DNA from: a virus
Virus record (IMG/VR): IMGVR_UViG_3300037189_002516
Span: 1 to 29,489 of that record
Direction: 5' to 3' (one strand)
Length of the DNA: 29,489 bases
Shown here: positions 934 through 22,756 of the stretch, in pieces
How positions within the stretch are numbered: the stretch's first letter is position 1
How the letters are laid out: the number at the start of each line of letters is the position of its first letter
Notes under the pieces: generated by a model
What the model was told of the DNA's origin: nothing
Database searches by the model: none
What the model saw: only the letters and a program-made list of their open reading frames with translations
Program-made: the position numbers and the translations under genes

Positions 934-950
934 TTTGGTTTCTCCACTCA

Positions 951-958
951 TATTTATC
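951..958 (-). promoter_or_regulatory. T4-type late promoter for gp13
   Basis: GATAAATA on the minus strand matches the NATAAATA late element recognised by the phage sigma factor gp55. With the T4 geometry (element at -13 to -6), transcription would begin near 945, giving a leader of about 12 bases that starts with GGAGAAACC and ends at the ATG at 933. This fits the start chosen for gp13. Promoter activity is inferred. Confidence 0.6.
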
Positions 959-2136: not shown

Positions 2137-3566
2137 TGCAGTTTTTTTATGACGGACAGATACGTAGATATCTAGTACAGATTATAAGAGTCTTTAGTAA
2201 CTTCGTAGTCAAATACGGCGACGGAACATTACATCAAGTGCCTGTAAGTTACGGCGATCCTGATAGACAAGCGGCCGCAATATTAAGACAAAATAGCGAA
2301 AATGCTATACAAAGCATTCCTAGGATCGCAGTGCATGTTACTGATATACAATTAGATCGTAGTAGGTTAGGAGATGCTACGTACATCGGTAAGCAACATA
2401 TAAGAGAAAGAGATATCTTCACAGATCCTACTACTGGAAATCCTACATATTCATCTGGACAAGGTAAAAACTATACGATCGAAAAGCTAATGCCAACGCC
2501 ATTTAAGTTAACTGTTAAGGTTGACATTTGGACCAGTAGCACTGAGCAAAAATTACAGTTGTTGGAACAGATCGTAGTACTGTTTAATCCTAGCTTAGAA
2601 ATACAGACCACTGACAATTATATCGACTGGACCAGTTTAAGCGTGTTAGATCTAACACAGTTACAATGGAGTAGTAGGCAAGTTCCTGTAGGCACTACAG
2701 ATGCTATAGATCTAGCTACATTAACATTAGAGGCCCCAGTTTGGATTAGTCCGCCAGTTAAAGTCAAGAACTTGGGTGTTATTACTAATATTATAACCAG
2801 TATATATGGTAGCCAAGGTCCGGATTATCAGGGTTATATCGATGGGTTAGGTGTTGATATGAACACCGGCGACAATAATCCTGTATTAAGTGATTTATTA
2901 AGCACACAGTATGTCTCGAACAGCGGTGATTTTGGGCTACTACTTTTAAACAGCCAGGCACAGATACTTAACCCCGGAAGCAATGTTTCAGCGACTAACG
3001 ACAGTTTAGATGTACCAGTAAGTTATAGCGTACCGATTAATTGGAGCGATTGGTTGCTTTCTTGTAAAGGTACATATGTCGGTGGTTCTAGTAAGATTTA
3101 TTTCATGCAACCGACAGGATATGAAGTTAGTGGAACATTTACTATAAACCCGTTGGATGATACTACTATCAGTATTACTTTAGACTCCAGCACATATCCA
3201 AGCAATAGCATCATACCAAGCTCTTATCGAAGCAGAAGTACCGGAACATTTGATGCCATCATCGATCCACAAAAAAGCTATGTTGGAAACGGTATAGATA
3301 ATGTGCAAGCAGGAGATAGATTCTTGCTAATCGAAGATGTTATCACCAATACTATAGCTTGGGGATCGTTCCAAGCCAAGGCTAATGATATTATAGAATG
3401 GGATGGATCTGCGTGGACTACAGTATTTGACCATACTCAATATTCCAACACCATAGTATATCTAACGAATATATACAGTGGAGTGCAATATAAGTGGAAT
3501 GGAGTTGCATGGGTCAAATCGTTTGAGGGCGAGTATAGGGCAGGTACATGGAGAGTAGCGTTGTAA
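2136..3566 (+). CDS. 15: Tail completion and sheath stabiliser protein gp15-like
   Basis: A 476-residue protein whose first 230 or so residues match the gp15 family, the hexameric ring that caps the tail tube and stabilises the sheath. Signs are the start FFYDGQIRRY (compare T4 gp15 GYFYNSSFRRY), SENAIQSIPRIAVHVTDI, a TPFKLTVKVDIWTSSTEQKL strand pair, NPSLEIQTTDNYIDWTSLSV, and LEAPVWISPPVKVKNLGVI. T4 gp15 is only 272 residues; here a roughly 240-residue C-terminal extension follows, with two small WxGxxW segments (EWDGSAW, KWNGVAW) and the end EGEYRAGTWRVAL. Cyanophage gp15 proteins carry a similar extension. In T4 genes 16 and 17 follow; here they do not. Confidence 0.8.
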   Translation: MQFFYDGQIRRYLVQIIRVFSNFVVKYGDGTLHQVPVSYGDPDRQAAAILRQNSENAIQSIPRIAVHVTDIQLDRSRLGDATYIGKQHIRERDIFTDPTTGNPTYSSGQGKNYTIEKLMPTPFKLTVKVDIWTSSTEQKLQLLEQIVVLFNPSLEIQTTDNYIDWTSLSVLDLTQLQWSSRQVPVGTTDAIDLATLTLEAPVWISPPVKVKNLGVITNIITSIYGSQGPDYQGYIDGLGVDMNTGDNNPVLSDLLSTQYVSNSGDFGLLLLNSQAQILNPGSNVSATNDSLDVPVSYSVPINWSDWLLSCKGTYVGGSSKIYFMQPTGYEVSGTFTINPLDDTTISITLDSSTYPSNSIIPSSYRSRSTGTFDAIIDPQKSYVGNGIDNVQAGDRFLLIEDVITNTIAWGSFQAKANDIIEWDGSAWTTVFDHTQYSNTIVYLTNIYSGVQYKWNGVAWVKSFEGEYRAGTWRVAL

Positions 3567-3997
3567 AAGATAAGATAGTGTGTAGTGGCGCATTAATTTA
3601 CGCTAAGAAAACTCACAGGATTCTACTTTTACAAAAAGCACACGGCAAACATGAAGGAACTTGGGGACTAGTAGGCGGTACTACTATAGAAGGTGAAAAT
3701 CCCTGGCAAGGTCTGCAGAGAGAAATCATAGAAGAAATCGGTTCTCTCCCCAAAATAATCAAAACGATTCCATTAGAAACATTTGTCAGCAACGACTATG
3801 TCTTCAATTTCCACACTTATCTCTGCGTTGTAGAAGATGAGTTTGTTCCTGTACTTAGCGACGAGCACACAGCGTGGGCTTGGGCTGGTATAGATACTGC
3901 TCCTAAGCCCCTACATCAGGGATTAAGAAACAGTTTTAGTAATCGTGCCATGCGCACAAAATTGCAAACTGTGTTTGAAGTTATGGATTTAATCTAA
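3548..3997 (+). CDS. Nudix (MutT-type) hydrolase
   Basis: A 149-residue protein with a complete Nudix box at residues 44-66: G44, E50, R58-E59, E62-E63 and G65 fit Gx5Ex7REUxEExGU. Nudix enzymes hydrolyse nucleoside diphosphates linked to another group (NUDP sugars, dinucleotides, oxidised NTPs, ADP-ribose or pyrophosphates); the substrate cannot be read from sequence. The length is typical of a single Nudix domain. The ATG lies 19 bases inside the end of gp15, which suggests translational coupling, and the next gene starts two bases after its stop. Being the first gene of the enzyme run, it may clean up or activate a nucleotide-linked intermediate, but this is only inference. Confidence 0.9.
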   Translation: MESSVVKDKIVCSGALIYAKKTHRILLLQKAHGKHEGTWGLVGGTTIEGENPWQGLQREIIEEIGSLPKIIKTIPLETFVSNDYVFNFHTYLCVVEDEFVPVLSDEHTAWAWAGIDTAPKPLHQGLRNSFSNRAMRTKLQTVFEVMDLI

Positions 3998-3999
3998 CT

Positions 4000-4587
4000 A
4001 TGTGGAAAATACCAAGTATTTCTAAACCTATAGAGCCTTATGCCTGGATGCAAAATGTCTTTACTCCAGAAGAATTAGATCTGATTATCGATATCGGAAA
4101 ATCGCTTCCGTTAGTCAACGGCGGAGTGAATGATGCAAATACTCCTGCCAGCACAGCCGTTCGCAGGAGCAAGATTGCGTGGATATATCCCGAAGTTAGC
4201 AACACTTTTATATTTGTAAAACTTACCGATGCACTGTTAAGGATCAATGATACCTTTTTTAATTACGACCTAACTGAGCTAGAAGATTTACAGTTTACAG
4301 AGTACGATTCCAGTTACGAAGGAATGTACAGAAATCATACAGACGACGGTTACGATACAGAAAAATATAGAAAATTAAGTTTTACATTGCAACTGTCCGA
4401 TCCAACCGATTACGAAGGCGGCGACTTGCAACTGTATCGCTGGAAACTAGATCAACCTAATGTAGTAAAGAAAGAAAGAGGTCTTTTATCAGTCTTTACC
4501 AGTAGCACAATACACGAAGTAACACCTGTAACTAAAGGAACACGGTATACATTAGTAGGATGGGCCAATGGACCAAGATTTCGCTAA
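4000..4587 (+). CDS. 2OG-Fe(II) oxygenase, prolyl-4-hydroxylase/PKHD-like
   Basis: A 195-residue protein with the double-stranded beta-helix signature of 2-oxoglutarate/Fe(II) dioxygenases: H113-x-D115 (in RNHTDDG), a following beta-strand with YEGGDLQLY (residues 138-146), distal H172 (STIHEVTPV) and R182, which would bind the 2-oxoglutarate carboxylate. The spacing and the EGGDL/HEVTPV motifs are those of the PiuC/PKHD-type and prolyl hydroxylase families, which hydroxylate peptides or small molecules. It follows the Nudix gene by two bases without an evident ribosome binding site, so it is probably translated by coupling. The substrate is unknown. Cyanophages commonly carry such genes. Confidence 0.85.
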   Translation: MWKIPSISKPIEPYAWMQNVFTPEELDLIIDIGKSLPLVNGGVNDANTPASTAVRRSKIAWIYPEVSNTFIFVKLTDALLRINDTFFNYDLTELEDLQFTEYDSSYEGMYRNHTDDGYDTEKYRKLSFTLQLSDPTDYEGGDLQLYRWKLDQPNVVKKERGLLSVFTSSTIHEVTPVTKGTRYTLVGWANGPRFR

Positions 4588-5140
4588 AGTAAACATTGTT
4601 AGTCTATGGCCAACATCTATACTGATGACAGAATATCATGAGAATTTGCCTGATTTAATTTCTGAAATCTACAGATTATCAAACGAGACAAACAATATTA
4701 AAAAATCTAACTATGGTGGTTGGCAAAGTAATGTCGATCTATATAGCAATGATAAATTTAAACCACTTTGTCAATACATAGCTAAAATATGTTTTGAACA
4801 ATTTGGAAAGGACAGCACTACTATACATCAGATGTGGGTAGGCATTAATAAAAAATATCATCACAATGTTATTCATAATCATGGTTCACAGTATCATGTA
4901 TCCGGTGTATATTATGTTAGTGTGCCTCTGGAGTCAGGGGATATTGTATTCCGAGACCCTCGTCCTGCCGCAACTAGTTCGTCAGCTCGGGAGTTATTTG
5001 ATAAAGGAGAATGTGAAAGATTTAGACCTTATTCTGGTCTCATATTATTATTTCCTTCATACCTAGACCATTTTGTTTTACCCAGTGAAAGCGCCGAGGA
5101 TCGTATCTGTATTAGCTTCGATCTAACGCTAAAGGACTGA
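4568..5140 (+). CDS. Putative 2OG-Fe(II) oxygenase, PF13759 type (HxH)
   Basis: A 190-residue protein of the 2OG-FeII_Oxy_5 type. Hallmarks are the N-terminal LWPTSIL, a W-x-x-N segment near residue 52, H103-N-H105, SGVYYVSVPLESGDIVFRDP (112-131), LFPSYLDHFVLP with H168, and R179 in EDRICISF. In this family the usual HxD iron motif appears as HxH, so the acidic ligand is not evident; the site could use three histidines. It overlaps the previous gene by 20 bases. It is one of five such paralogues in the window; the others begin at 6987, 12205, 14389 and 17514. Substrate unknown. Confidence 0.75.
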   Translation: MDQDFAKVNIVSLWPTSILMTEYHENLPDLISEIYRLSNETNNIKKSNYGGWQSNVDLYSNDKFKPLCQYIAKICFEQFGKDSTTIHQMWVGINKKYHHNVIHNHGSQYHVSGVYYVSVPLESGDIVFRDPRPAATSSSARELFDKGECERFRPYSGLILLFPSYLDHFVLPSESAEDRICISFDLTLKD

Positions 5141-5141
5141 T

Positions 5142-5789
5142 ATGTTTTTAGATAACAAGATAATAATTATAGATAATTTTTATAAAGATCCCGATGCTGT
5201 TCGTAAATTTGCGTTGTCGGAGCCATATAAAACTTGCAAAGAAGCACCCGGCGGCGGCAATTGGCCAGGTCGACGAACTGATTTTTTGCATGAAATTAAT
5301 ACTGATATAAGCGATGAGTTTCATAATACTTTCTTAGGTAATCTTTTAGAAAATAATCCTATCAAATATCGAGGATATATCGAAACAAACTTCCAATTGT
5401 GTTACGAAAGCGACGGCGATTCCTGGGTACACTATGACACTCCGACTTGGCACTGTACACACGTGGGTGTAGTATATCTTACACCAAATCCTCCGGAAAA
5501 TTCTGGAACATTATTCTACGAATTTGACGAAACATATCGTGCCGAGTTTGAAAAGTATGCGGCAAAACATAATTACAAGTGGTATGGCTTGAATAGAGAC
5601 CAGGACAAAGAAGAATTCCATAAGTTTTTTAAAATGACTATGCAGATACCAAATGTATACAACAGGGCTATATTATATGGGCCACACCGTTGGCATAAGT
5701 CAGATCGATATTTTGGAGATACACCAGAAAATGGAAGATTATTCCAGCCATTTTTTGTTAATTTAGAATTTTTGTATGATGAAAAGTAA
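5142..5789 (+). CDS. DUF6445-like putative non-haem iron oxygenase
   Basis: A 215-residue protein resembling DUF6445, a family often found near tryptophan-halogenase genes in bacteria. It has the N-terminal IIIIDNFYKDPDAVRKFAL pattern (residues 7-25), GNWPGRRT (39-46), H97-x-D99 in SWVHYDTP, a VGVVYLTPN strand (108-116) with the following SGTLFYE, and a C-terminal YGPHRWHKSDRYFG (179-192) with R199, consistent with the distal histidine and the 2-oxoglutarate arginine of a cupin-fold oxygenase. It begins one base after the previous stop. Its biochemical reaction has not, to my knowledge, been established. Confidence 0.7.
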   Translation: MFLDNKIIIIDNFYKDPDAVRKFALSEPYKTCKEAPGGGNWPGRRTDFLHEINTDISDEFHNTFLGNLLENNPIKYRGYIETNFQLCYESDGDSWVHYDTPTWHCTHVGVVYLTPNPPENSGTLFYEFDETYRAEFEKYAAKHNYKWYGLNRDQDKEEFHKFFKMTMQIPNVYNRAILYGPHRWHKSDRYFGDTPENGRLFQPFFVNLEFLYDEK

Positions 5790-6426
5790 ACCTACACTTG
5801 CTATATACGGAGATAGTTTTGCAGACCCGAGGTGGGTTGAAAATGACTATCCAGCATGGTCAGAATTATTAGAAGAAAATTTTACAGTTACTAATTTTTC
5901 TTTTACCGGAACTGGTATGTGGTGGAGTTATGATAAATTTATTGAAACACATGAAAAATTCGATACTGTTGTATTTGTTGTAACTGTTCCTGGCAGGATA
6001 CACATAGAATGCAAGGATGCCCACTTAAATTTAAATCCAGCAACATGGCCTGTTTGGAGTGGTATCAACATGGGCGATATGTATTTTAGATATTTTTATT
6101 CTCCTAAGAGAGAAGATTGTTTCCATAAATTTATGGTTGATGATATTTTAAAAAGAAATAATATTCTAGTAGTTCCAGCATTCAAAGAAAGTATTCCGGG
6201 CCACGAAGGCTGGTCACTATGTCATCTAGCAGATACTGAACTGGCATTCTACGATTTAAAGCACAATGGTTGGAACGAAAAGAGAAAATGCCATATGACT
6301 AGAGAAAACAACAGAATGGTTTATAATAAAGTACTAGAGGCGGTCGATAACGGTTCTAAGATTTTAAATCTACAGGAATCTGATTTTGTTCCACCAGCCG
6401 ATCCTTTAACAATGTATTGGAAGTAA
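5776..6426 (+). CDS. SGNH/GDSL hydrolase-like protein
   Basis: A 216-residue protein starting with a beta strand that ends in YGDSFADP (G12-D13-S14), the block I nucleophile motif of SGNH hydrolases. A GTG at 45-47 is in the position of the second block, and a C-terminal H173 in KCHMTRENN lies where the catalytic histidine would be expected, preceded by acidic D160. Family members are esterases, lipases and O-deacetylases. It overlaps the DUF6445-like gene by 14 bases. No signal peptide is seen, so it would act in the cytoplasm. An ester-removing or ester-forming step in the same pathway as the oxygenases is possible but inferred. Confidence 0.65.
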   Translation: MMKSKPTLAIYGDSFADPRWVENDYPAWSELLEENFTVTNFSFTGTGMWWSYDKFIETHEKFDTVVFVVTVPGRIHIECKDAHLNLNPATWPVWSGINMGDMYFRYFYSPKREDCFHKFMVDDILKRNNILVVPAFKESIPGHEGWSLCHLADTELAFYDLKHNGWNEKRKCHMTRENNRMVYNKVLEAVDNGSKILNLQESDFVPPADPLTMYWK

Positions 6427-6427
6427 C

Positions 6428-6997
6428 ATGGAATATAAGATTATAAGAAATTTTACAGATATCGATACTTGCAATCGCCTGGTCGATCGTCTAGATCGAT
6501 TTTATAAAGACCAACTAGATCTGCCGCCTGATAATCAATGCCCAAACAGCCCATCATTCTATGGTATTTTTAACGACGAATCACAACTATGGTTGCCGCG
6601 CATCGAAGAGGCGGTAGAAAAGAAACTGTTTCCAACATACACTTATTCAAGGATATACACTAAAGGAGAAGTTCTACCTCCCCATGTAGACAGAGACGAA
6701 TGCGAATTTAGTTTTACACTGGCATTAAGATACGATAAAGATATCTGGCCCATATACTTGCAAACCAGCGAAGGTGTAAAGGAAGTATTTTTAGACAATG
6801 GAGATATACTAATTTATAAAGGTGTTGAAAATATACATTGGCGGCTAGCTTTAGAAAATCAATTCCATTACCAAGGATTTTTCCACTATGTAGATCAAGA
6901 CGGCCTATTTGCACACAAAAAATTTGATGGCAGGTCTACTTTTGCAACCACACAAGATGCAGTCGATGAACTACTAAGGAGAAAAAATGTACTATAA
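6428..6997 (+). CDS. 2OG-Fe(II) oxygenase-like protein (HxD)
   Basis: A 189-residue protein with H86-V-D88 in LPPHVDRDECEFSFTLAL, a following strand IWPIYLQ, the turn LDNGDILIYKG (122-132) and distal H137-W-R139. This is the layout of a single-domain 2OG/Fe(II) dioxygenase, and similar proteins are encoded by marine T4-like phages. The ATG lies one base after the upstream stop. The C-terminal 40 residues after the catalytic core are basic and may pack on the core or bind a partner. Substrate unknown. Confidence 0.75.
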   Translation: MEYKIIRNFTDIDTCNRLVDRLDRFYKDQLDLPPDNQCPNSPSFYGIFNDESQLWLPRIEEAVEKKLFPTYTYSRIYTKGEVLPPHVDRDECEFSFTLALRYDKDIWPIYLQTSEGVKEVFLDNGDILIYKGVENIHWRLALENQFHYQGFFHYVDQDGLFAHKKFDGRSTFATTQDAVDELLRRKNVL

Positions 6998-7586
6998 CGA
7001 CGAGTTTAAGTATATGCTAATCGATGTTCCCTACATAGCAGAGAATATCGAAGATATCAAACGTATGACCGCAGTAGGTGTTGACAAGTTTAAGCGGAAG
7101 TTTAATCTAAAAAATCATGCCAATAGTACCGATAATATTACTTGGCAGTTTTCTAACTATAATGTATACAGCGTTTGCTCGTGCAATCAGTGGTTTTATA
7201 ACATCTATAAGAATCTAGTTACAGGCATACGAGAATATCATACTCTTTCAAATACTCCTATACCGTCCCAATTATGGATGCAGTCGTGGATTAATAGCCA
7301 CACCCCAAAACAAGTTCTAAAATCACACAATCACGACTGGCCGTTGCACGGATATATCAGCATCGAACCCATGAAATCCTGCACTGTTTTTACCGACAAA
7401 CCGAACGGTAAGGAGCTATACCGCGTAGAAAACAAAGTCGGACAGATTTATATAGGGCCCGGGTACAGATTCCACCACGTTGAAATGTTAGAGCCGTTTG
7501 CAGGCGAACGCATTACATTTGGATTCGATCTAGAGAACAGGGATCGCATTATCGATAATATGGGTCTCATACCAATAATCATCTGA
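6987..7586 (+). CDS. Putative iron-dependent oxygenase, PF13759-related (HxH)
   Basis: A 199-residue protein. The second half carries the hallmarks of the family: MQSWINSHTPKQ (98-109), H114-N-H116 in SHNHDWPLHGYISIEP, a CTVFTDKPNG strand-turn (132-141), GQIYIGPGYRFHHVEMLEP with H163/H164, and R175 in ERITFGFDL. The order and spacing are those of the 2OG-FeII_Oxy_5 proteins, with FTD in place of the usual FxDP. The N-terminal 90 residues are less typical. A good ribosome binding site (AAGGAG, 6976 onwards) lies inside the previous gene, with which it overlaps by 11 bases. It ends the first enzyme sub-operon: a 50-base gap follows. Confidence 0.65.
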   Translation: MYYNDEFKYMLIDVPYIAENIEDIKRMTAVGVDKFKRKFNLKNHANSTDNITWQFSNYNVYSVCSCNQWFYNIYKNLVTGIREYHTLSNTPIPSQLWMQSWINSHTPKQVLKSHNHDWPLHGYISIEPMKSCTVFTDKPNGKELYRVENKVGQIYIGPGYRFHHVEMLEPFAGERITFGFDLENRDRIIDNMGLIPIII

Positions 7587-7609
7587 GCTTAAAAAAATCT
7601 GCGTAAATA

Positions 7610-7630
7610 CTCGGTATATAAATGACCGAG
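7610..7630 (+). promoter_or_regulatory. Possible internal late promoter inside a small hairpin
   Basis: In the only gap of the plus-strand enzyme run, TATAAATG (7617-7624) matches the T4 late element TATAAATA in seven of eight positions. It lies in the loop of a 6-bp inverted repeat, CTCGGT (7610-7615) and ACCGAG (7625-7630), whose right arm touches the GAGGA ribosome binding site of the next gene. Either or both may be coincidental. Confidence 0.35.
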
Positions 7631-7636
7631 GAACCC

Positions 7637-8224
7637 ATGATTAATAAGAATTCAGAAATTTATCTTTTAGAAGATGTCGTATCTCCGGATACTTTTGTTA
7701 ACGTTTCGGCAGATCTAGACGGCGACATATGGAAATACGGCGTGATGACTCCTTACATAGGAGCCGAGATCGAGGATGATACTAAATTTTGGTACTGCGA
7801 CATGTTAAAAAACAGATGGCAGGAACTGATATTTCGGGATATTATCCTCAAGCTAGAAACGGTACATCCGCATACTTCACAATATCAATTTAAAAGCATG
7901 GACGTTAAGGCTGGCGGGAAAACTGCCGGCATGAATGGCGATGTGCATATTGATCGCACATTTAATTTCAATGTAGAAGGCGACGGATATATGACTTTTT
8001 GTTATTTTCCTAACAGAGAATGGAAAGATGAATGGGGCGGGGAACTAGTGTTCTACGATGCAGAAGGCGATGTTATTGCAAGCATATTGCCTAAACCAAA
8101 CACATGCGTAGTATTCGACAGTAATATTCCACATCAAGGATTCGGCCCGAATGCTGGCTGCGATGTATTAAGGAAATTTATATCTTATAAGACATTTGTA
8201 CACAAACAGTGGAACAAAACTTAA
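7637..8224 (+). CDS. 2OG-Fe(II) oxygenase, prolyl-4-hydroxylase type
   Basis: A 195-residue protein and the clearest canonical oxygenase of the run: H104-I-D106 after GDV, EWGGELVFYDAEG (132-144), PKPNTCVVFDSNIPHQGFGP with distal H166, and R179 in LRKFISYK. It matches the P4Hc pattern with all iron and 2-oxoglutarate ligands. An in-frame ATG at 7622 lacks a ribosome binding site and sits in the possible late promoter; the ATG at 7637 follows GAGGA (7628-7632) and is preferred. Its last bases lie just before the start of the small cysteine-rich gene. Confidence 0.85.
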   Translation: MINKNSEIYLLEDVVSPDTFVNVSADLDGDIWKYGVMTPYIGAEIEDDTKFWYCDMLKNRWQELIFRDIILKLETVHPHTSQYQFKSMDVKAGGKTAGMNGDVHIDRTFNFNVEGDGYMTFCYFPNREWKDEWGGELVFYDAEGDVIASILPKPNTCVVFDSNIPHQGFGPNAGCDVLRKFISYKTFVHKQWNKT

Positions 8225-8235
8225 AGGAGATTCTT

Positions 8236-8487: not shown

Positions 8488-8488
8488 A

Positions 8489-10713: not shown

Positions 10714-12215
10714 TGAAACGAGATATTATAGTCTTAGGTGGAGGCGGTGCAGGATGGATCACTGCTTTATTTTTAAAAGAAAAATTTCCTAATATTAGTA
10801 TCACGGTCGTTGAAGATCCTAACACTCCTCCTATTGTTGCAGGTGAAAGCGGTTCCGCTTTATTCAATAAATTATTAAATTTTTTAGGAATAGAATTCAA
10901 TGAGTGGATTCCCGCAGTTAACGCTATGCCAAAACTGGGCGGACGATTAGTTAACTGGAACGGCATTGGTACCTCGTTTGTGCATGGTCTAGTACCTCAA
11001 TGGTACAGCGCACGATACGACGGTGAATTTCCTGCGTTTGGAGACTCGATAGATTTTATATCCACAGCAGTTGCTCTAGACGTTCCAGTAGATAAGATAT
11101 TTTATGCGGCAGACCTACAGAATACCAATAAAATACCCATAACTCCGGCAGGAGGTGTCAATAGTTTTAATGTATTAACGATGCCCATGTGGCATTTTGA
11201 TAGTAGGGCTAATGCAACATTCATGAAGGAAAGAGCCCTTGAAAAAAATATCAAGTTGGTAGAAGGAAAATATATCAGCTGTACCAAGACACCACGTGGG
11301 GATATCAGCAGTATACTGTTAGACGACGGGTCTGAACTAAAAGCCGATTGGTATTTTGATTGTTCTGGATTTGCTAGATTGTTACTGAAGAAAGAACTAG
11401 GCGTAGAAGAAAACGATCTTAGCGATTATTTTCCAGCAAGTTCGGTCTTAGCATGGTGGGATGATCCTACTATAAAAAATTATACCGGTCTCACAGCTAT
11501 GAAACACGGTTGGAGCTGGGAGATTAATCTACAGCATAGAGCTGGAAACGGATACATCTATGACGAACAACATGCATCTGTCGATGAGATCGTACAAGAG
11601 ATAGAAGAGACATTCAATAAAAAGATCACGCCTGTGGCGAATCTAAAATTCCGACCCTCGTTGCTTAAAGAAGGATGGAGGAATAACGTAATAGCTATCG
11701 GTTTAAGTAGCGGGTTTTTAGAACCATTAGAATCTAATGGGCTTAGTAGCATTGCAGAACAACTAAAAGCTGTAGAAAATTTCTGGAACCCTGAAAGTCT
11801 AGGAGGGTGGGATCGTGATTGTTATAACAGATACACTGCTGAAGTCATGTCTGATATATGCGATTTCTTATGTCTGCATTATAGAGGAAAACGCAATGAT
11901 ACTGAATTCTGGAGAGATCATAACACTAATCCAATAAGGATTTCAGACAAATTACGAGAAAGATTAGATGGCGCTAGGGAAGGTGTATTAGGAATCGATG
12001 ATGTCCAAGGATACGGTATAGAAAATTACATAGTTGTCATGCAAGGTCTTAGCTTAATTAATAAAGAAAAATTAAAGAATCGACTATTGGCAAAAAGATC
12101 TACTATATTTGAAGATTTTGAAAAACATTATAATATACTGTCAAAAGAGATTGCTCAAATTAACGAAATATGTTACACTACAGAACAGTGGAGATCTATA
12201 ATTTATGGAAAGTAA
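10713..12215 (+). CDS. Flavin-dependent tryptophan-halogenase-like protein 2 (divergent motifs)
   Basis: A 500-residue paralogue of the flanking halogenase genes. The dinucleotide fold is intact (G9-G10-G11-G12-A-G14), K74 in PKLGGRLVNW is kept, and FLEPLESNG (335-343) retains the glutamate. Two hallmarks deviate: the GxGEST segment reads VAGESGS (42-48), and WxWxIP reads WSWEIN (267-272), with proline changed to asparagine. Motif changes of this kind occur in less typical family members with other or unknown substrates, so halogenation should not be assumed; it could oxidise or hydroxylate, or be specialised for another halide. Start taATG directly overlaps the stop of halogenase 1, so the two are probably translated together. 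Confidence 0.8.
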   Translation: MKRDIIVLGGGGAGWITALFLKEKFPNISITVVEDPNTPPIVAGESGSALFNKLLNFLGIEFNEWIPAVNAMPKLGGRLVNWNGIGTSFVHGLVPQWYSARYDGEFPAFGDSIDFISTAVALDVPVDKIFYAADLQNTNKIPITPAGGVNSFNVLTMPMWHFDSRANATFMKERALEKNIKLVEGKYISCTKTPRGDISSILLDDGSELKADWYFDCSGFARLLLKKELGVEENDLSDYFPASSVLAWWDDPTIKNYTGLTAMKHGWSWEINLQHRAGNGYIYDEQHASVDEIVQEIEETFNKKITPVANLKFRPSLLKEGWRNNVIAIGLSSGFLEPLESNGLSSIAEQLKAVENFWNPESLGGWDRDCYNRYTAEVMSDICDFLCLHYRGKRNDTEFWRDHNTNPIRISDKLRERLDGAREGVLGIDDVQGYGIENYIVVMQGLSLINKEKLKNRLLAKRSTIFEDFEKHYNILSKEIAQINEICYTTEQWRSIIYGK

Positions 12216-12822
12216 TATAGAAACTATTAACCTATTTCCTATACCAATTAAAAAAGTCAAAATCATTCCCTCGGAACATCAATATAATTCGTTGGGCAGT
12301 TTGATCGACAGGTTACTGTCTAGTACATCCGAAAATAATTGGGCACTAGAATCAGGAAAATCCACAGGCGAATTAGATCTATATCTCTACAAGAAAATAG
12401 AGATGAAATGGTTAGTCGATGCCGCTTTACTCCATGCAAATAATTATTGGCAAGATATGGATTATAGGAGAGGTGCAAAAGTATCTATAACCAGCAGTTG
12501 GGCGAATTTACATACATACGGCCAGGTTACCGGCGAGCACAGCCATTGCGGTGGCGCAGTCAAAGCACACATTTCTGCTGTATATTATCTTAAAAAACCC
12601 AAGGATTCAGGAAACATAAAGTTTACTGATCCGCTAGAATATATACATAAAATGACACCGGCTCATAACTACGATGAAACATTCGGTAGTACGTATTGCG
12701 AAGTCGATACAGATCAATTCGACCTGATACTATTCCCAAGCTGGTTAAAGCATCAGACACAGCCTAATATGTCCTACGACGATCGTGTGGCAATTAGCAT
12801 AAATTTTATAGGAACTTGGTAA
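12205..12822 (+). CDS. Putative 2OG-Fe(II) oxygenase, PF13759 type (HxH)
   Basis: A 205-residue protein of the 2OG-FeII_Oxy_5 type: INLFPIPI near the N terminus, SSWANLHTYGQ (98-106), H112-S-H114, ISAVYYLKKPKDSGNIKFTD (123-142), LFPSWLKHQTQP with H183, and R194 in DDRVAISINF. It sits between the second and third halogenase-like genes, overlapping both (11 bases upstream, TAATG downstream), which suggests that it works with one of them. HxH instead of HxD is shared with four other paralogues. Substrate unknown. Confidence 0.75.
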   Translation: MESNIETINLFPIPIKKVKIIPSEHQYNSLGSLIDRLLSSTSENNWALESGKSTGELDLYLYKKIEMKWLVDAALLHANNYWQDMDYRRGAKVSITSSWANLHTYGQVTGEHSHCGGAVKAHISAVYYLKKPKDSGNIKFTDPLEYIHKMTPAHNYDETFGSTYCEVDTDQFDLILFPSWLKHQTQPNMSYDDRVAISINFIGTW

Positions 12823-14405
12823 TGATTGTTGATAGTATTGTTATTGTAGGCGGCGGAACAGCCGGGTGGATGACTGCGGCCACGTTAGTTAAGCATTTTC
12901 CTAATAAGAAAATCACGCTAATCGAAAGCGCAGATGAACCAACAGTCGGAGTTGGCGAAAGTACTATCGGCGGAATCAATGATTGGTTAAACTCGTTAGA
13001 CATCAATGAAGATGACTGGATGAAGGCCTGCGATGCTAGTCTTAAACTCAGTATCAAATTCACAGATTGGGCCGGGAAAGGGTCCGGATCATTCCACTAT
13101 CCGTTTGGAGAATCATGGACTGTTGGCACTGCGCATGGTATCAACGATTGGTATATTAAAAAAGCATGGTACCCGGAAACTCCTGTCAGTGATTTCTGCG
13201 ATTGTTTCTTCCCGCAGATGGAATTAGTCTATCAGAACAAGGTTACAAAAAACGAAGAAGGCGAATTACCCGGTTGGAGGTATGACAGAGACGTTGCCTA
13301 TCACTTTGATGCCGCAAAATTTGGAGCATGGCTGAGAGAAGGATATTCCAAGCCACGTGGTGTACAGCACATAGTAGGCACTATAAAAGAGAATGTTGCT
13401 ACCGATAAAGACGGTGTTCAGTATTTAGAATTAACCACTGGTGAAAAAATTACTGCGGATCTGTATATTGATTGTACAGGATGGAAGAGTTTATTGTTAG
13501 GTAAAGCATTAGGTGTTCCGTTTATCAGTTATGAGCACCTGTTGCCCAATAACAGTGCATGGGCTACTAGATTGCCCTACACAAATAAAGTAGACGAACT
13601 AGAAGGTTATACTAACTGTACAGCAATCAGCAACGGCTGGGTTTGGAATATTCCGTTATGGAGTCGCATTGGTACAGGCTACGTCTTTTCCGACAAGTAT
13701 ATTTCTAAAGAAGATGCGCTAGAAGAATTTAAAAACTATCTAAAGACTGATAGAGAAGTTAAAGTAGATCCAGCCGTCGTTGAGTCTCTCGAATATCGAT
13801 TTATCAAGATGCGTATTGGCATTCACGAAGAGCTTTTCCATAAGAATGTGTGTGCTATCGGTCTATCAGCCGGATTCATAGAGCCGTTAGAATCTAATGG
13901 GTTGTTTACTGTACACGAGTTTCTACATCAACTTGTAAAAACACTAGGACGTCGGGACATAGGCATGATTGACAAGATGGGATTCAACAAGACATCTACC
14001 GGCGCATATGATTCATTTGCAGAATTTGTCAGCATGCACTATACACTAAGCCAGAGAAATGATACACAATATTGGCTCGATGCTCGCGAACGACTCGGCG
14101 GCCGATCAAAAGAAATAGGAATCTATAAGAGCTATGGTATCGATAATGCCATATTCAAGAGAGATTTCTCCTCGGCGTTCGACGGAACCATGGGAGGATT
14201 GCCTATGATTGCAACCGGATTAAATTATTTTCCCGTAGACCTTAACACTATACGCAGGACAGAGTTTAAGCATGGCATAAATTTATCTTTTGTTAATGAT
14301 TCTTTTGAAATATGGGAATCAAATAAGGTTTACTGGAAATCGGTTGCTGATAAATCACCTACTATTCTGGAATACCTAGAGTCAAAGTATGATAATTCCA
14401 AGTAA
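12822..14405 (+). CDS. Flavin-dependent tryptophan-halogenase-like protein 3
   Basis: A 527-residue halogenase-family flavoprotein. It has GGGTAG (10-15), GVGEST (43-48), K75 in ASLKLSIKFTDW, WVWNIP (273-278, fitting WxWxIP) and FIEPLESNG (352-360). All residues that define the halogenase active site and the FAD-to-substrate tunnel are present. Its FDAAKFGAWL segment and a longer middle region (85-160) set it apart from copies 1 and 2, so the substrate may differ. The ATG at 12822 follows AGGAA (12810-12814) and overlaps the upstream stop as TAATG; a TTG six bases upstream is in frame but less likely. Confidence 0.9.
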   Translation: MIVDSIVIVGGGTAGWMTAATLVKHFPNKKITLIESADEPTVGVGESTIGGINDWLNSLDINEDDWMKACDASLKLSIKFTDWAGKGSGSFHYPFGESWTVGTAHGINDWYIKKAWYPETPVSDFCDCFFPQMELVYQNKVTKNEEGELPGWRYDRDVAYHFDAAKFGAWLREGYSKPRGVQHIVGTIKENVATDKDGVQYLELTTGEKITADLYIDCTGWKSLLLGKALGVPFISYEHLLPNNSAWATRLPYTNKVDELEGYTNCTAISNGWVWNIPLWSRIGTGYVFSDKYISKEDALEEFKNYLKTDREVKVDPAVVESLEYRFIKMRIGIHEELFHKNVCAIGLSAGFIEPLESNGLFTVHEFLHQLVKTLGRRDIGMIDKMGFNKTSTGAYDSFAEFVSMHYTLSQRNDTQYWLDARERLGGRSKEIGIYKSYGIDNAIFKRDFSSAFDGTMGGLPMIATGLNYFPVDLNTIRRTEFKHGINLSFVNDSFEIWESNKVYWKSVADKSPTILEYLESKYDNSK

Positions 14406-14964
14406 TCCATGGCCTAGTTTAATTTATAAATCACACTACGATGGCGATCTCAGTGAGATCGTAACAGTGGCCAGTGCGATTTGTAAAAACATAACAGAAG
14501 ATCATGGATTAGAAGACGGTGGAAAATCAACTTGGGATCGAACTATCAGTATACTAGACTTGCCTGAATTTGTTGATCTAAAACAATGGTTGATAGATCG
14601 ACATTCCGAAGCATGGAACGCATGGGGTTTCAATGATCACAAGCGACATCTACATAAAAGCTGGGTAAACTGGCATCCAACAGGAGCCAGTACTAGAGAA
14701 CACGATCATGGTGCTGTACATTTAGTCATAGTGGTATATCTACAGCAACCAGAAAACGGTGGAAATATACAATTTAAAGATCCGTTGCAATACCACTGGA
14801 GCTCTTATCCTAGCCCTGATACTGACAATTGGAAAACTATCGAAGTTAAGACCGGTGATGTACTATTTTTTCCCGGTTTTCTACGACATCGCACTGAACC
14901 TAATACCGGTACAGGTGATAGATTTGTACTAACAGCTAACATAACGGCACAATATGCTCTTTAA
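14389..14964 (+). CDS. Putative 2OG-Fe(II) oxygenase, PF13759 type (HxH)
   Basis: A 191-residue protein with the family layout: SWVNWHPTGA (91-100), H105-D-H107, VIVVYLQQPENGGNIQFKDP (113-132), GDVLFFPGFLRHRTEP with H167, and R178 in GDRFVLTANI. It overlaps the third halogenase gene by 17 bases, so each of the halogenase copies 2 and 3 is followed at once by one of these proteins. The pairing is clear in the sequence; a shared reaction is inferred. Confidence 0.75.
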   Translation: MIIPSNPWPSLIYKSHYDGDLSEIVTVASAICKNITEDHGLEDGGKSTWDRTISILDLPEFVDLKQWLIDRHSEAWNAWGFNDHKRHLHKSWVNWHPTGASTREHDHGAVHLVIVVYLQQPENGGNIQFKDPLQYHWSSYPSPDTDNWKTIEVKTGDVLFFPGFLRHRTEPNTGTGDRFVLTANITAQYAL

Positions 14965-15694
14965 TAAAAAACAAACACCGATTATAGAATTTAGTTGCAA
15001 GGAATGGGCCATAAGAAAACATGCCCCAGTACTGCCTTCTATACATTTTCTTCCTAAAGAGTATGAAGATCTGCCAGCTGGGAATAAATGTCCGTTTGAT
15101 CACTTTCAAGAAGCATCGTTACTAAGCATTAAATTATGCCCTGCGGTTGGCAATTATCTAAACGCAGGATATGTTATACCTGCATGGTGCGACATTGAGA
15201 TCACATTTGAAGACAATAATTTTAGAATAAACTACAGCAATCTGAACTATCAGCATCGTACACATCCTGAAGAACAATTTAAAGGCATGTTTGATCGATT
15301 TAAGATGCGAACAGATATCAAATTAGACAGCCCGTGGGCTATTAAAACTGCACCCGGTTATAGTGTTATGTGGATGCCCATGTGGTTCCACAACAATAAT
15401 TTCCAAGCAGTTCCTTCCATAGTCGATACTGATTCGGTTCCAAATCATAATCCTATAAACATCATGCTATTTGAAGCAAAGACCACAATTATTAAGATGG
15501 GAGATCCATTAGTACAAGTGATTCCTTTTAAGAGAGAACACATTACAGGTGTTAGTAGAGAATATACCGAAGCAGACTATAAACGCAAAGATGCATTAAT
15601 GGGTTTAGGACAACTATCTAAGTACGGCTGGCGACAATTTATCAAGAAAAATGTAAAATATTTGTTAGACCGTAAGGATCTCGATTTGCCATGA
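14954..15694 (+). CDS. DUF6065-like protein
   Basis: A 246-residue protein with KLCPAVGNYLNAGYVIPAWCD (55-75), a conserved PWAIKTAPGYSVMWMP segment (about 126-141), FQAVPSIVDTD and KMGDPLVQVIPFKRE. These fit the general DUF6065 pattern: P-W-x-x-x-T-x-P-G-Y-S, a turn with IVDTD, and GxPL-x-Q-x-x-P. DUF6065 genes occur in halogenase/oxygenase neighbourhoods, but no activity is known to me. It is a distant paralogue of the gene at 8489-9250; the pair bracket the three halogenases. Eleven-base overlap with the upstream gene and four bases (ATGA) with the next. Confidence 0.6.
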   Translation: MLFNKKQTPIIEFSCKEWAIRKHAPVLPSIHFLPKEYEDLPAGNKCPFDHFQEASLLSIKLCPAVGNYLNAGYVIPAWCDIEITFEDNNFRINYSNLNYQHRTHPEEQFKGMFDRFKMRTDIKLDSPWAIKTAPGYSVMWMPMWFHNNNFQAVPSIVDTDSVPNHNPINIMLFEAKTTIIKMGDPLVQVIPFKREHITGVSREYTEADYKRKDALMGLGQLSKYGWRQFIKKNVKYLLDRKDLDLP

Positions 15695-16290
15695 TAGATA
15701 TAAACGATATTATCGTATTAGATGATGTAATTAACAAGACATATCAACATGCCTTAGAAAATGTACTGCTAGAAGAAATGGGGGCTCATTGGTTTTTGCT
15801 AGATGATGTCGCATATCCAAGCCCAGCAGTCAGCATCTGTCGCCCTGGAATAGTACATCCTTTGTTTGAACAGAACAAAGGAATCATGAGTTCTTTATAT
15901 AACTTAACATTGCCCATGGTGTTTGAAGCTGTTTCTAACATTGATTATACTTTTGGAGAAGTCGTAAGAGCACGTTCGTTCATACAATTTCCTACAGGCG
16001 CTAATCTTGTCAATCATCCACATATAGATACTAACGAACAGCATCTAGTATGCTTATATTATGTAAACGATAGCGACGGTGACACTGTAATCTATAACGA
16101 GACTGCGGACGATATTCAAAATTTACCCGGAATAGATACAAGTATGCTAACTATTAAGCAAACTATTTCTCCTAAGAAAGGACGTGCGGTATTATTTAAT
16201 GGTAGAAGATATCATAGTAGCACTACGCCTATAGCTAATAAAAGGTGTATAGTGAATTTTGATATCACAGTAAGGATTAAAAATGCTTAA
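15691..16290 (+). CDS. 2OG-Fe(II) oxygenase (HxD), tandem paralogue A
   Basis: A 199-residue protein with H111-I-D113 in NHPHIDTNEQHLVCLYYVND, SDGDTVIYN (128-136), SPKKGRAVLFNGRRYHSSTTP with distal H175, and R185 in NKRCIVNFDI: a complete 2OG/Fe(II) ligand set. The first 25 residues (DIIVLDDVINKTY) form the usual N-terminal strand-helix. It overlaps both neighbours by a few bases. The next gene is a clear tandem paralogue with the same PKKGRAV-FNG-RYHSST core. Confidence 0.85.
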   Translation: MIDINDIIVLDDVINKTYQHALENVLLEEMGAHWFLLDDVAYPSPAVSICRPGIVHPLFEQNKGIMSSLYNLTLPMVFEAVSNIDYTFGEVVRARSFIQFPTGANLVNHPHIDTNEQHLVCLYYVNDSDGDTVIYNETADDIQNLPGIDTSMLTIKQTISPKKGRAVLFNGRRYHSSTTPIANKRCIVNFDITVRIKNA

Positions 16291-16957
16291 TTTAGACGAA
16301 TTTATCGTGATAGACGATGTAGTAAGTCCGCAGTTTCAGAAATTAATCGAAGAATGGTTGTTGTCTCCGGCTAGTACATGGTCTTTTGCACGTGATGTTG
16401 CCCTAGATGACAATGTTATCGATAATCTAAAACTAAACTCAAGACCCGGATTCAGCAAAACGCTGTTTAGCCTCAAGAGCGGAAAATCTAATGACCTGTA
16501 TCCTATGATTTTACCATTAGTTTTCGAAGCTAGCGCAAAAGCAGGACTGCATGTAGGAACTGTTTTGTTTTCTAGAAGTTTTATAACACTTCCAATTCCT
16601 GGCGATACCGGCAATACTTTTGACCATGTGCATGTTGATACACCCGATGAGCATATAGTTTGTCTATACTACGCAAATGATAGCGATGGCGATACTGTAT
16701 TTTTTGATTGGACTGTTCCTCAATTATTAGAAGACCCGGAAATACAGCAAGCTCTAGAAGCCTCGGGTCATAATTACAATGATCAGACATTGTTAGATCT
16801 ACTAGATAAACGTATTGCAAAGAGCGATTTTAAAGTAATAAAAAGAGTAACTCCTAAGAAAGGAAGAGCTGTATTCTTCAACGGTTTAAGATATCATTCG
16901 TCAACTAGATGCACAGCTGGATATCGTTTAATCGTTAATACTTGCTTCAGGCCATGA
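16283..16957 (+). CDS. 2OG-Fe(II) oxygenase (HxD), tandem paralogue B
   Basis: A 224-residue paralogue of the preceding gene: H117-V-D119 in DHVHVDTPDEHIVCLYYAND, SDGDTVFFD, PKKGRAVFFNGLRYHSST with distal H205, and R215 in YRLIVNT. The ligand set is complete. Relative to copy A there is an insertion of about 25 residues between the two halves of the beta-helix (after VFFDW, roughly 143-180), rich in D, E and Q, the loop that would line the substrate pocket. Overlap of eight bases with copy A and ATGA coupling with the next gene. Confidence 0.85.
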   Translation: MLNLDEFIVIDDVVSPQFQKLIEEWLLSPASTWSFARDVALDDNVIDNLKLNSRPGFSKTLFSLKSGKSNDLYPMILPLVFEASAKAGLHVGTVLFSRSFITLPIPGDTGNTFDHVHVDTPDEHIVCLYYANDSDGDTVFFDWTVPQLLEDPEIQQALEASGHNYNDQTLLDLLDKRIAKSDFKVIKRVTPKKGRAVFFNGLRYHSSTRCTAGYRLIVNTCFRP

Positions 16958-17514
16958 TTATGAAATATCAAGAACACACAACTAAATCAGGAAATAAGAT
17001 TAAAGTATGGGATGACTTGTATAGTTATTCTGAACGTGTTGCTATGCTAAGGGGAATCACCGAAAGTGATTTTAAGTTTCGTTCGACTTACGATAATGAA
17101 CTTGAAAATCAGGAAGGAACTTGGTCAGTATATTGTGATTTAAATCTAAATCTAACTACTATGCTACTTGTAGATAAAGTTCCTGAATTAAGGAAAGAAT
17201 TTGCAGGATATCATCCATTCAGGTCATGGGTAAATTCCTCGACTAAGGAAACAGATCATGCATTCCATCCAGATTCCGATGACCCTACATGCAAGAGCAT
17301 GTTATATTATGCAAATATCAAATGGGATCATCTAAATTGGGATGGTTATACTATCTGGAGGACTCCGAATCTAGATGATATAGAATTTGTTAGCGATTTT
17401 ATACCTGGAAGGATAGTTGTATTTGATAGCATAATTCCGCACAAAGCTTCTATCGCTAGTAAACGGGCACAACCATTTAGATTTACTATTAATACTATCT
17501 GGAAACCACTGTAA
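16954..17514 (+). CDS. 2OG-Fe(II) oxygenase-like protein (HxD)
   Basis: A 186-residue protein with H105-P-D107 in AFHPDSDD, a CKSMLYYANIKWDHLNWDG strand pair, DFIPGRIVVFDSIIPHKAS with distal H163, and R176 in FRFTINTIW. The layout is that of a 2OG/Fe(II) dioxygenase of the P4Hc kind. The ATG at 16954 overlaps the upstream stop as ATGA; a second ATG at 16960 is equally possible. It ends with TAATG overlapping the next gene. Substrate unknown. Confidence 0.8.
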   Translation: MIMKYQEHTTKSGNKIKVWDDLYSYSERVAMLRGITESDFKFRSTYDNELENQEGTWSVYCDLNLNLTTMLLVDKVPELRKEFAGYHPFRSWVNSSTKETDHAFHPDSDDPTCKSMLYYANIKWDHLNWDGYTIWRTPNLDDIEFVSDFIPGRIVVFDSIIPHKASIASKRAQPFRFTINTIWKPL

Positions 17515-18095
17515 TGTCTAGCGATATACAATGGGTTGGGTCTATTCCAATAGCCAGATCATTCTGGAAGGAATTCGATCAGCATAAGAATGCTATTGTA
17601 GATCTATGCCTACGGCAAGAAAAAACAAACGTTATAGAATCAAACATTGCAGTAGATTTAAAACAAAATATGTGGGAATCAAATTTTAATTTTTTGTCAC
17701 AGCCAAGTCTAACTGAACTTAATACATGGATGCATTCCGTAACTTCTGATTTTGTCAGTAATGTTAACAACAAATCCCACAGGATTGCAATAACAGAAAG
17801 CTGGGCTCATGTTACTAGACCTTCGGGATATCATGGACCGCACAGGCATCCGTGGTCAACCTGGAGTGGGATTTTTTATGTTTATGCAGACGATCCGTCA
17901 GTTGCCAACAACACATTCCTTAATCAATTCAATATGCCTGTGATTCCTGGGTATGAATTTTTCGAAGAAGAGATGCAGATAGAATTTAAAGCAGGGTCAC
18001 TCGTGATTTTCCCAAGTACAATGTTGCATTACGCAAAACCATACTTGGGAAATGATAAGAGAATAGTTATTAGTTTTAACAGTGTCTGTCTTTAA
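17514..18095 (+). CDS. Putative 2OG-Fe(II) oxygenase, PF13759 type (HxH)
   Basis: A 193-residue protein, the last of the plus-strand enzyme run. It has SWAHVTRPSGYHG (96-108), H110-R-H112, WSGIFYVYADD (117-127), AGSLVIFPSTMLHYAKP with H172, and R183 in DKRIVISFN. The strand after YVYADD lacks the usual SGxIxFxDP, being replaced by a longer loop (128-157). Its stop is directly beside the stop of the convergent tail gene, without any terminator between. Confidence 0.75.
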   Translation: MSSDIQWVGSIPIARSFWKEFDQHKNAIVDLCLRQEKTNVIESNIAVDLKQNMWESNFNFLSQPSLTELNTWMHSVTSDFVSNVNNKSHRIAITESWAHVTRPSGYHGPHRHPWSTWSGIFYVYADDPSVANNTFLNQFNMPVIPGYEFFEEEMQIEFKAGSLVIFPSTMLHYAKPYLGNDKRIVISFNSVCL

Positions 18096-22719: not shown

Positions 22720-22744
22720 AATATCTCTCTTTTTAGTTAGTTAC

Positions 22745-22754: not shown

Positions 22755-22756
22755 TA

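Follow-up and report, generated by a model that had tools for sequence, protein, structure and literature searches.

The window analysed here is the whole of a 29,489-nucleotide virus sequence, IMG/VR record IMGVR_UViG_3300037189_002516, positions 1 to 29,489. Going by 100% matches (L001, L081 and L130), it appears to be part of the 38,778-bp IMG/VR contig IMGVR_UViG_3300032285_000968. Positions 3548-18095 hold an island of 20 tandem open reading frames (ORFs) on the + strand, with a spacing between neighbours of -20 to +35 bp, which encode three flavoproteins of the Trp_halogenase family, twelve oxygenase-like proteins, two DUF6065-like proteins, and Nudix, SGNH-like and zinc-ribbon-like proteins. 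Just beyond position 18095, on the - strand, lie a phrog_1787 gene and then three tandem phrog_863 tip genes (18748-22147) whose products have Gly-rich C-terminal parts. The original prediction for this DNA described the enzyme island but ended at 18095 and left out the adjoining tips, which are the most constant partner of the VirX1-type halogenase: tips are linked to a halogenase in every evaluable tip locus.

The first island gene, for a Nudix hydrolase (3548..3997; PF00293 E 1.8e-15), overlaps by 19 bp the gene of an extended, T4 gp15-like tail sheath stabiliser (2136..3566, + strand; phrog_227 E 1e-20, phrog_11196 E 2.4e-75), and because of this overlap with a structural gene the island is probably expressed together with the structural genes. 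The three tryptophan-halogenase-type flavoproteins of the original prediction were recovered with PF04820 as halogenase A (9247..10713; E 5e-101), halogenase B (10713..12215; E 1.9e-84) and halogenase C (12816..14405; E 1.6e-104); their relatives are called below the halA, halB and halC types. All three contain the GxGxxG motif for flavin adenine dinucleotide (FAD). Each Gly of this motif is present in 169/170 aligned rows, with one row gapped, and the catalytic Lys (PrnA K79) is kept in 170/170 rows, the three window sequences being counted twice here via locus copies. The WxWxIP motif is complete in halogenases A and C, and its Pro is kept in 67/67 A-type and 75/75 C-type rows, the other positions varying more in the A-type. 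Halogenase B reads WSWEIN, with Pro in 0/28 B-type rows and N, S or D instead, so we call it only halogenase-like. The WxWxIP motif has been suggested to prevent monooxygenation, according to a review which, like the papers cited below by PMC number, is drawn on here in excerpt. Halogenase B may have drifted in function and might act as an oxygenase. In the EPLExxG motif Ser, Ala or Asn stands at the Gly position in 67/67 halA rows. Judged by their conserved residues, the three window halogenases look catalytically live.

The best solved relative of halogenase C is VirX1 of phage Syn10 (6qgm; E 1.3e-104), and against the Syn10 gene halogenase C shows 39% identity across 93% of the length. In a quick maximum-likelihood (ML) tree of 137 rows, in which some branches are long, halogenase C falls within a 62-row clade holding the Syn10 enzymes (Shimodaira-Hasegawa-like approximate likelihood-ratio test, SH-aLRT, 99). 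Halogenases A and B lie outside this VirX1 clade, together with the P-SSM2, S-H38 and HTVC008M types.

The tips themselves occupy 18748..19695 (tip 1; phrog_863 E 1.1e-36, and a row in the tip alignment), 19697..21199 (tip 2; phrog_863 E 2.8e-49) and 21206..22147 (tip 3; phrog_863 E 3.1e-41, PF21722 Gly_rich_2 E 1e-6), all on the - strand. An AlphaFold2 (AF2) model of tip 3, with a predicted local distance difference test (pLDDT) score of 79, matched the Pam3 fibre 7ypx with a Foldseek E of 1.4e-8 and superposed on it with Z 20.7 and a root-mean-square deviation (rmsd) of 2.3 over 181 residues. The same model gave Z 15.8 with the Bxb1 tail tip, and tip 3 matched Mtd_N at E 0.0012, below the cut-off. 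From this model the window tips are predicted to be Gly-rich receptor-binding tips with a Pam3-type distal fold. For Pam3, recognition of the host receptor is ascribed to the TNF-like and Gly-rich domains, and a chaperone of 162 residues is reported to take part in fibre assembly (PMC9608196).

The window phrog_1787 protein (18096..18737, - strand; phrog_1787 E 2.8e-21) is probably a tip chaperone or adaptor, as its place and size suggest. It is related to the Syn10 protein encoded between the tips and VirX1 (BLASTP E 2e-9). The likeness to Pam3 gp24/gp25 lies in the fold of tip 3 and in a gene of similar size next to the tips (162 residues in Pam3 gp25, 164 in the Syn10 protein). The differences are that the window tips form a tandem of three which travels with a halogenase in the loci examined, and that the Syn10 phrog_1787 protein has no sequence match to any solved chain at E<=1. 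Neither the tips nor the phrog_1787 protein matched solved structures by direct sequence comparison at E<=1.

How constant is the association of tips and halogenases? We scanned IMG/VR starting from the tips, taking the best 80 of 172 matches for the window tips and the best 80 of at least 375 for the cyanophage tips, and counted a locus as evaluable when at least 6 kb followed the last tip gene. With the window-type tips a halC-type halogenase was found in 69/71 loci, including 60/60 evaluable ones, all 60 with phrog_1787. With the cyanophage-type tips a Trp_halogenase-family gene, its type not assigned, was found in 73/79 loci, including 52/52 evaluable ones, all with a phrog_1787-like gene; here the nearest tip-halogenase distance had a median of 557 bp and a maximum of 857 bp. 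In all eight loci without a halogenase the contig breaks off at or near the tips: soon after them in two (L163, L186), and within 423 bp of the last tip in six. DUF6065-like genes accompany the tips in 37/60 and 49/52 evaluable loci, respectively. Most loci are ordered tips, phrog_1787, halogenase, across different backbones and with tips as little as about 36% identical to the query; in L210, L211, L218 and L220 one or two genes intervene before the halogenase. The halogenase of window-type loci points towards the tips and lies further off. The loci include many close relatives and are not independent events; by contig name, 20/71 contigs of the first scan and 2/79 of the second were already known from halogenase scans, and 11 contigs occur in both tip scans. 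The link is strict only for the VirX1 type (halogenase C), and halogenases A and B merely share the island.

The same picture was obtained among 50,697 phage records. The two cyanophage tip queries matched 20 of them, phrog_1787 matched the same 20, and all 20 carry a halC relative at 34-44% identity, these records amounting to about ten distinct phages with many copies and close relatives. Since tblastn masks simple sequence, it can miss Gly-rich proteins, and window tip 2 as a query matched two records only, both of P-RSM6 and outside the Gly-rich half. A second Gly-rich family, of Sf-CH11 type, has a halogenase in 12/14 loci, the other two being cut off; these 14 are close relatives.

Scans were also started from the halogenases. 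Three queries gave 134 loci, some sharing contigs, in which the gene order recurs; in window-like loci the halogenases number two to five and the DUF6065-like genes one or two, beside numerous oxygenases. Scattered homologues would have spoken against a joint system in the original prediction, and a conserved neighbourhood was found instead; FAD and iron binding, the second criterion given there, was judged by conserved residues. In 30 records chosen for holding a halogenase, phrog_863 fibre matches occur in 22 and gp15-like genes in 24, and where both markers occur, the interval from gp15 to the fibre genes contains every halogenase in 18/19 records. The remaining record, G018, matches the tips only weakly. 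Matches that had been split in G003, G016, G019 and G022 were joined manually, leaving out one 59-position piece of G019. In a bacterial genome collection a single-sequence query, suited to close relatives only, found VirX1-type enzymes in 3 loci: one contains the entire phage module, one an oxygenase/DUF6065 run with a Gly-rich gene, and one neither of these. Two contigs binned in metagenome-assembled genomes (MAGs), L230 (Euryarchaeota TMED129) and L229 (Maricaulis), carry the phage tip/halogenase module and a similar oxygenase run, respectively, and may be phage contamination of the bins.

Such a linkage could also arise if recombination is concentrated in the interval from the fibre to the neck genes and exchanges tips and other genes there as one block, the enzymes acting on host metabolites or the host surface and only travelling with the tips. 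We consider this hitch-hiking unlikely, though it deserves to be weighed seriously. A variable structural-module region carrying metabolic genes is known (PMC2984593), S-RIM44 strains exchange the whole block, and other phages have other contents at the site (neither tips nor halogenase in 29/50 neck-gene loci, see below). On the other hand, halogenases accompany diverged tips on different backbones and in mostly constant order in all evaluable loci of both scans. The slot itself was examined with the neck gene of a strain lacking the halogenase (hal-) as query, the criterion being a locus length of at least 10.8 kb rather than upstream length. Among the 50 loci obtained, 10 had tips and halogenase, none had tips only, 11 had a halogenase only and 29 had neither (Fisher p 3.4e-5). 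By this control the halogenase is not a constant of the slot, which speaks against hitch-hiking.

S-RIM44 allows a comparison within one species. Tips, phrog_1787 and the DUF6065-like gene were matched in five of its records, whereas four other records gave no match to any of the three. A single one of these four hal- records was compared in detail with a halogenase-bearing (hal+) one: the flanks are 95.6% and 94.8% identical, and the whole block between them is exchanged. The hal+ block consists of three Gly-rich tips, phrog_1787, two halogenases, a DUF6065-like gene and oxygenases. The hal- block consists of an unrelated, not Gly-rich tip-place protein of 294 residues, a 121-residue protein, one 2-oxoglutarate (2OG) enzyme and a 66-residue protein. 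The allele with an unrelated tip-place protein thus carries no halogenase, which again speaks against hitch-hiking. For the hal- tip-place protein IMG/VR gave a single relative, L231, which has no halogenase; one locus is not enough for a control.

Related modules occur in cyanophages with VirX1-type halogenases. In Syn10, S-CREM1, S-WAM1, S-SZBM1, P-RSM6, P-TIM40 and S-RIM44, Gly-rich proteins and a gene of 135-221 codons are followed by a halogenase, and the Gly-rich proteins (15 proteins) match the profile of the window tips with E 4e-55 to 5e-44. On this profile evidence the jumbo-type window phage and T4-like Kyanoviridae isolates share homologous tips. The original prediction spoke of single 2OG oxygenases and halogenase-like genes in cyanophages. 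Syn10, the source of VirX1, has more than that: two halogenase genes lie side by side, and a DUF6065-like protein, a JmjC_2 protein and several 2OG oxygenases in a row are encoded with them. The second halogenase, encoded by the gene after VirX1 (L139:11508-13100) and deposited as hypothetical, is a full-length Trp_halogenase (E 5e-105). JmjC_2 proteins elsewhere include ribosomal-protein hydroxylases, and for this reason the JmjC_2 protein of the Syn10 locus fits a protein substrate.

Halogenase C is alike to VirX1 in clade, catalytic Lys and WxWxIP, and the Syn10 locus has the same island type beside homologous tips. VirX1 is reported to have a large accessible active site, and the review table lists no gene cluster for it; both would suit a tip substrate. 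It differs in being treated, in the excerpts, as a single enzyme, whereas in the window three predicted halogenases accompany twelve oxygenase-like proteins, in a phage of jumbo type. With PrnA/RebH-type enzymes the window halogenases share PF04820, GxGxxG and the catalytic Lys; in contrast, halogenase B lacks the WxWxIP Pro, halogenase A lacks the EPLExxG Gly, and no pyrrolnitrin- or rebeccamycin-type genes are among the Pfam matches of the island.

On balance we lean, by a little, to the view that the island is a tip-tailoring cassette which would halogenate and hydroxylate the receptor-binding tips. The gene content, the conserved catalytic residues and the linkage are what we observed, and from these we infer the substrate and the chemistry, namely the tip as substrate, the target residues, the halogen, the role of the chaperone, the timing and the benefit. 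The exchangeable host-recognition module would comprise the tips, a small probable chaperone, a VirX1-type halogenase, usually a DUF6065-like protein with a dUTPase fold, and 2OG/Fe oxygenases. Late in infection the tips would be made and held by the chaperone-like protein while the enzymes modify their side chains. The halogenases, using reduced FAD (FADH2) from a host reductase, O2 and halide, would act on exposed aromatic side chains, and the oxygenases would hydroxylate others. The outcome may be a chemically altered adhesin, sturdier or differently sticky.

Which residues could be the targets? In 98 non-redundant tips the most constant non-Gly residues include Y189, S200 and F201 (each 100%), H219 and E156 (each 97%), N214 (96%), H242 (94%) and H269 (86%). 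The His content is 3.8% in the tip Gly-rich stretches and 1.3% in other Gly-rich ORFs, a threefold enrichment, the comparison set being any-frame ORFs rather than called genes; across whole tip proteins the His and Tyr enrichment is modest. If the most constant residues are those modified, Tyr189, His219, His242 and His269 of tip 3 would be candidates. In S-SZBM1 the tips 48 and 49 are predicted to yield 9 and 8 tryptic peptides of 7-30 residues. Proteins 51-54 were detected in a study of this virion and no long tail fibre protein was (PMC9146016); a text search of this proteome study gave no S-SZBM1_4x entry, hence none for genes 46-49 (tips, phrog_1787-like, halogenase). The place of these tips outside the detected proteins fits unexpected masses, and equally low abundance or poor extraction.

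The original prediction suggested that a halogenated, hydroxylated product may be made or decorated late in infection. A halogenating and oxidising island is supported, while the gene content gives no support to a free small molecule. That such a metabolite (an antibiotic, signal or pigment) is formed in the infected cell seems to us quite improbable. PF04820 does include halogenases of free tryptophan, halogenase A groups with the P-SSM2 type and has PrnA among its best solved relatives, and a pyrrolnitrin-like protection by phage PrnA has been suggested (PMC2984593, PMC9964418). However, among the 16 Pfam-matched island genes (4 are without a match) there is no match to a carrier protein, ligase, synthase or transporter, the strict linkage to tips would be left without a reason, and the VirX1 clade is separate from the set holding P-SSM2 and halogenase A.

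A very unlikely explanation, but one which would account for linkage to a receptor-binding gene, is that lipopolysaccharide (LPS) or surface proteins of the host are altered for superinfection exclusion, matched to the receptor of the tip. The halogenase of S-SSM7 does sit among sugar genes. The window island has no Pfam match to a sugar or lipid enzyme, and the substrates would presumably need to be met in the cytoplasm. It is scarcely credible, finally, that the oxygenases serve to drain or sense 2OG or to repair DNA, as proposed in PMC3037559 and repeated in PMC9146016: halogenases, DUF6065-like proteins and tip linkage would stay unexplained, and twelve diverged copies, eleven with tested conserved active sites, point to several substrates.

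Several observations weigh against tip modification. The window tips face the island on the opposite strand, about 4.7 kb from halogenase C (4658 bp to the nearest PF04820 match), and are therefore not in one transcript with it. In the reverse direction the link is loose: of the halC-type genes flanked by 5 kb on each side, 11/28 have tips within 10 kb. Some Gly-rich gene lies within 5 kb of 24/28 halC-type genes versus 73/139 background genes (Fisher p 0.0013), the Gly-rich background near halC being high because the loci are fibre regions. A Gly-rich gene lies within 5 kb of 7/41 halA-type and 0/22 halB-type genes. Beside the VirX1-clade enzymes of phages S-B64 and S-MbCM6 there is no Gly-rich gene in the 6 kb on either side, and in the stretches examined the halogenases of P-SSM2, Syn1, S-PM2, S-MbCM6, S-SSM7, S-SCSM2R and S-B64 are not beside tips. 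PrnA-like phage halogenases sit in metabolic-gene regions, that of HTVC008M lies between packaging genes, and that of S-H38 is about 4.6 kb from a Gly-rich gene. The VirX1-type halogenase thus also occurs away from tips, and halogenases A and B could have another role.

The Gly-rich tip of Pam3 gave a soluble trimer in Escherichia coli with its chaperone (PMC9608196), so that such modification is not needed for this fold generally. The region after g15 is known as variable in cyanomyoviruses (PMC2984593), hence the linkage can be hitch-hiking of a receptor-switch block. A flavin reductase (PF01613) was found in none of 9 phage records. The constancy of tip residues may equally reflect folding or buried structural roles, and that these residues are modified at all is something we infer.

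One further phage falls outside this set. In S-SRM01 (L153) a halogenase outside the VirX1 clade lies between a putative tail-fibre region and a gene annotated 'gp37-gp38 adhesin tip complex'. By its gene context, a halogenase thus adjoins an adhesin here too, independently of the VirX1-type loci.

The nearest kind of known system is phage virion glycosylation by neighbouring glycosyltransferase genes, in which a phage enzyme likewise adjoins the structural gene being modified and the chemistry differs. Marine worms and mussels harden or glue with halogenated, hydroxylated proteins rich in Gly, His and Tyr. We give about an even chance to the wider proposal that, in a similar way, the tips of marine phages receive dedicated post-translational chemistry, with VirX1-type halogenases and sets of 2OG oxygenases adding halogens and hydroxyls to adhesins rich in Gly, His and Tyr, that tips, chaperone and enzymes are swapped between backbones as one receptor-switching cassette, and that VirX1 is thereby supplied with its substrate.

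Phage 2OG sets and prnA genes are well reported (PMC2984593, PMC3037559, PMC9964418, PMC9602691, PMC9146016). The sets of 2OG-Fe(II) genes reach 24 in S-SCSM1 (PMC9602691), 10 in S-CREM1 (PMC9964418) and 9 in S-SZBM1 (PMC9146016); they share with the window island the Pfam families and the high copy number, and differ in that the literature treats them as auxiliary metabolic genes and that the S-SZBM1 set is scattered through the genome. In the S-CREM1 record eight 2OG genes, one named JmjC, stand directly behind the tip, halogenase and DUF6065-like gene. The literature searched, which leaves most subscription papers outside, gave no phage adhesins halogenated or hydroxylated by linked enzymes and no link between a halogenase and tail tips. 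The components themselves are known. The original interpretation is supported in part and redirected: most likely the island is part of a cassette for receptor-binding tips, which it would tailor.

In the excerpts drawn on, phage halogenases and the many 2OG oxygenases of marine phages are counted among the auxiliary metabolic genes, and the roles proposed for them, namely antibiotic protection, nitrogen signalling and DNA repair, are speculative. The linkage offers these enzymes one concrete, testable client, the receptor-binding tip. If the proposal is true, some phages tune host recognition by chemistry as well as by sequence, VirX1, the first characterised viral halogenase, gains a natural substrate, and standard virion proteomics may miss tips whose masses are shifted.

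The twelve oxygenase-like proteins of the original prediction (six HxD, five HxH and one DUF6445) were confirmed by motifs in orthologue alignments together with Pfam and PHROG matches. The HxD proteins are oxy1 (4000..4587; 2OG-FeII_Oxy_3, PF13640, E 2.6e-15), oxy3 (6428..6997; phrog_2954 E 1.5e-39, no Pfam match), oxy5 (7622..8224; PF13640 E 2.3e-10), oxy8 (15691..16290; PF13640 E 6.1e-6, phrog_274 E 8.4e-31), oxy9 (16283..16957; PF13640 E 2.9e-4, below the cut-off, phrog_274 E 2.2e-26) and oxy10 (16942..17514; 2OG-FeII_Oxy_3 below the cut-off, phrog_274 E 8.2e-14). The HxH proteins are oxy2 (4568..5140; 2OG-FeII_Oxy_5, PF13759, E 2.5e-19), oxy4 (6987..7586; PF13759 E 3.4e-4, below the cut-off, phrog_2696 E 2.6e-46), oxy6 (12205..12822; PF13759 E 5.3e-19), oxy7 (14389..14964; PF13759 E 1.2e-13) and oxy11 (17514..18095; PF13759 E 3.3e-17), oxy2 and oxy4 being assigned by motif as well. 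The DUF6445 protein (5142..5789; PF20043 E 5.5e-11) has an HxD...H motif.

Metal ligands and the distal Arg are 95-100% conserved in the HxD proteins and the DUF6445 protein, oxy10 being excluded as it has no distinct orthologue under the filter. For example, H113, D115, H172 and R182 of oxy1 are 100% conserved in 37 rows, H86, D88, H137 and R139 of oxy3 in 52 rows, and H97, D99 and H185 of the DUF6445 protein are conserved at 95-100% in 40 rows. The five HxH proteins differ from the standard HxD triad; their distal His and Arg are also present and 100% conserved within the alignments. Some PHROG labels on the island oxygenases look wrong, because the matched proteins carry 2OG-oxygenase-type motifs: phrog_274 'DNA endonuclease V', phrog_2954/3531 'ferrochelatase' and phrog_1644 'minor coat protein'. 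Similar names stand in the S-H38 and Sf-CH11 records on genes that match oxygenase profiles.

The remaining island proteins were also foreseen, with unequal outcome. The Nudix hydrolase and a small Cys4 zinc-ribbon-like protein (8209..8487; DUF6171 E 2.6e-6 and alignment) were found as described; a 73-residue Syn10 protein tried as a relative of the latter was rejected, having no Cys pattern. The SGNH-like protein (5776..6426) has the GDS motif, with D13 and S14 conserved in 5 rows, and no Pfam match at E<=0.1 or PHROG match at E<=0.01, so this assignment is by motif only. The two DUF6065-like proteins, b (8489..9250; phrog_17480 E 5.3e-14) and a (14954..15694), are distant relatives of each other (hhalign probability 92%, E 5.7e-7). 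Neither matched Pfam directly at E<=0.1, and 6/38 members of the family of protein a matched PF19541 (DUF6065), with a best E of 9.6e-7. The AF2 model of protein a (pLDDT 79) has a predicted dUTPase-like fold (Foldseek E 1.9e-4; Z 12.1, rmsd 2.9 over 127 residues). For protein b the ORF was listed from 8450; the alignment of its relatives moves the start to 8489, which is probably the true one. A DUF6065-like match was also seen in the haloarchaeal virus HRTV-2, while human faecal phage contigs and Campylobacter phage CP21 contain Trp_halogenase relatives (records MT835646, MT837902, HE815464 and MZ334517).

The flanking genes characterise the phage. A gp13-like neck or head-tail adaptor gene lies at 142..951 on the - strand (phrog_211 E 6.7e-32), followed at 976..2136 on the + strand by a virion structural gene of jumbo-myovirus type in gp14-like position (phrog_11591 E 1.9e-84). 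The best isolate relatives of the latter are Atu_ph07, Phosso, the PA5oct group and SCTP-2. By this one backbone gene, the backbone is nearest to jumbo myoviruses, not cyanophages. The photosystem gene psbA was not found in 16/16 related records, which may be fragments, and the idea of the island as a cyanophage feature was rejected on these two grounds. No halogenase was seen in the 31 kb around the related backbone gene in the jumbo isolates Atu_ph07 and SCTP-2, hence the island does not come with this backbone in every phage. When the first 25 kb of the window were compared with the phage records by megablast, no match was obtained. On the other side of the tips, further fibre-side genes of no clear family fill 22177..29489 on the - strand. 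Among them an open frame of 2124 residues at 23114-29489, with a weak PHROG match (E 2.6e-4), continues past the window and is possibly a fibre shaft.

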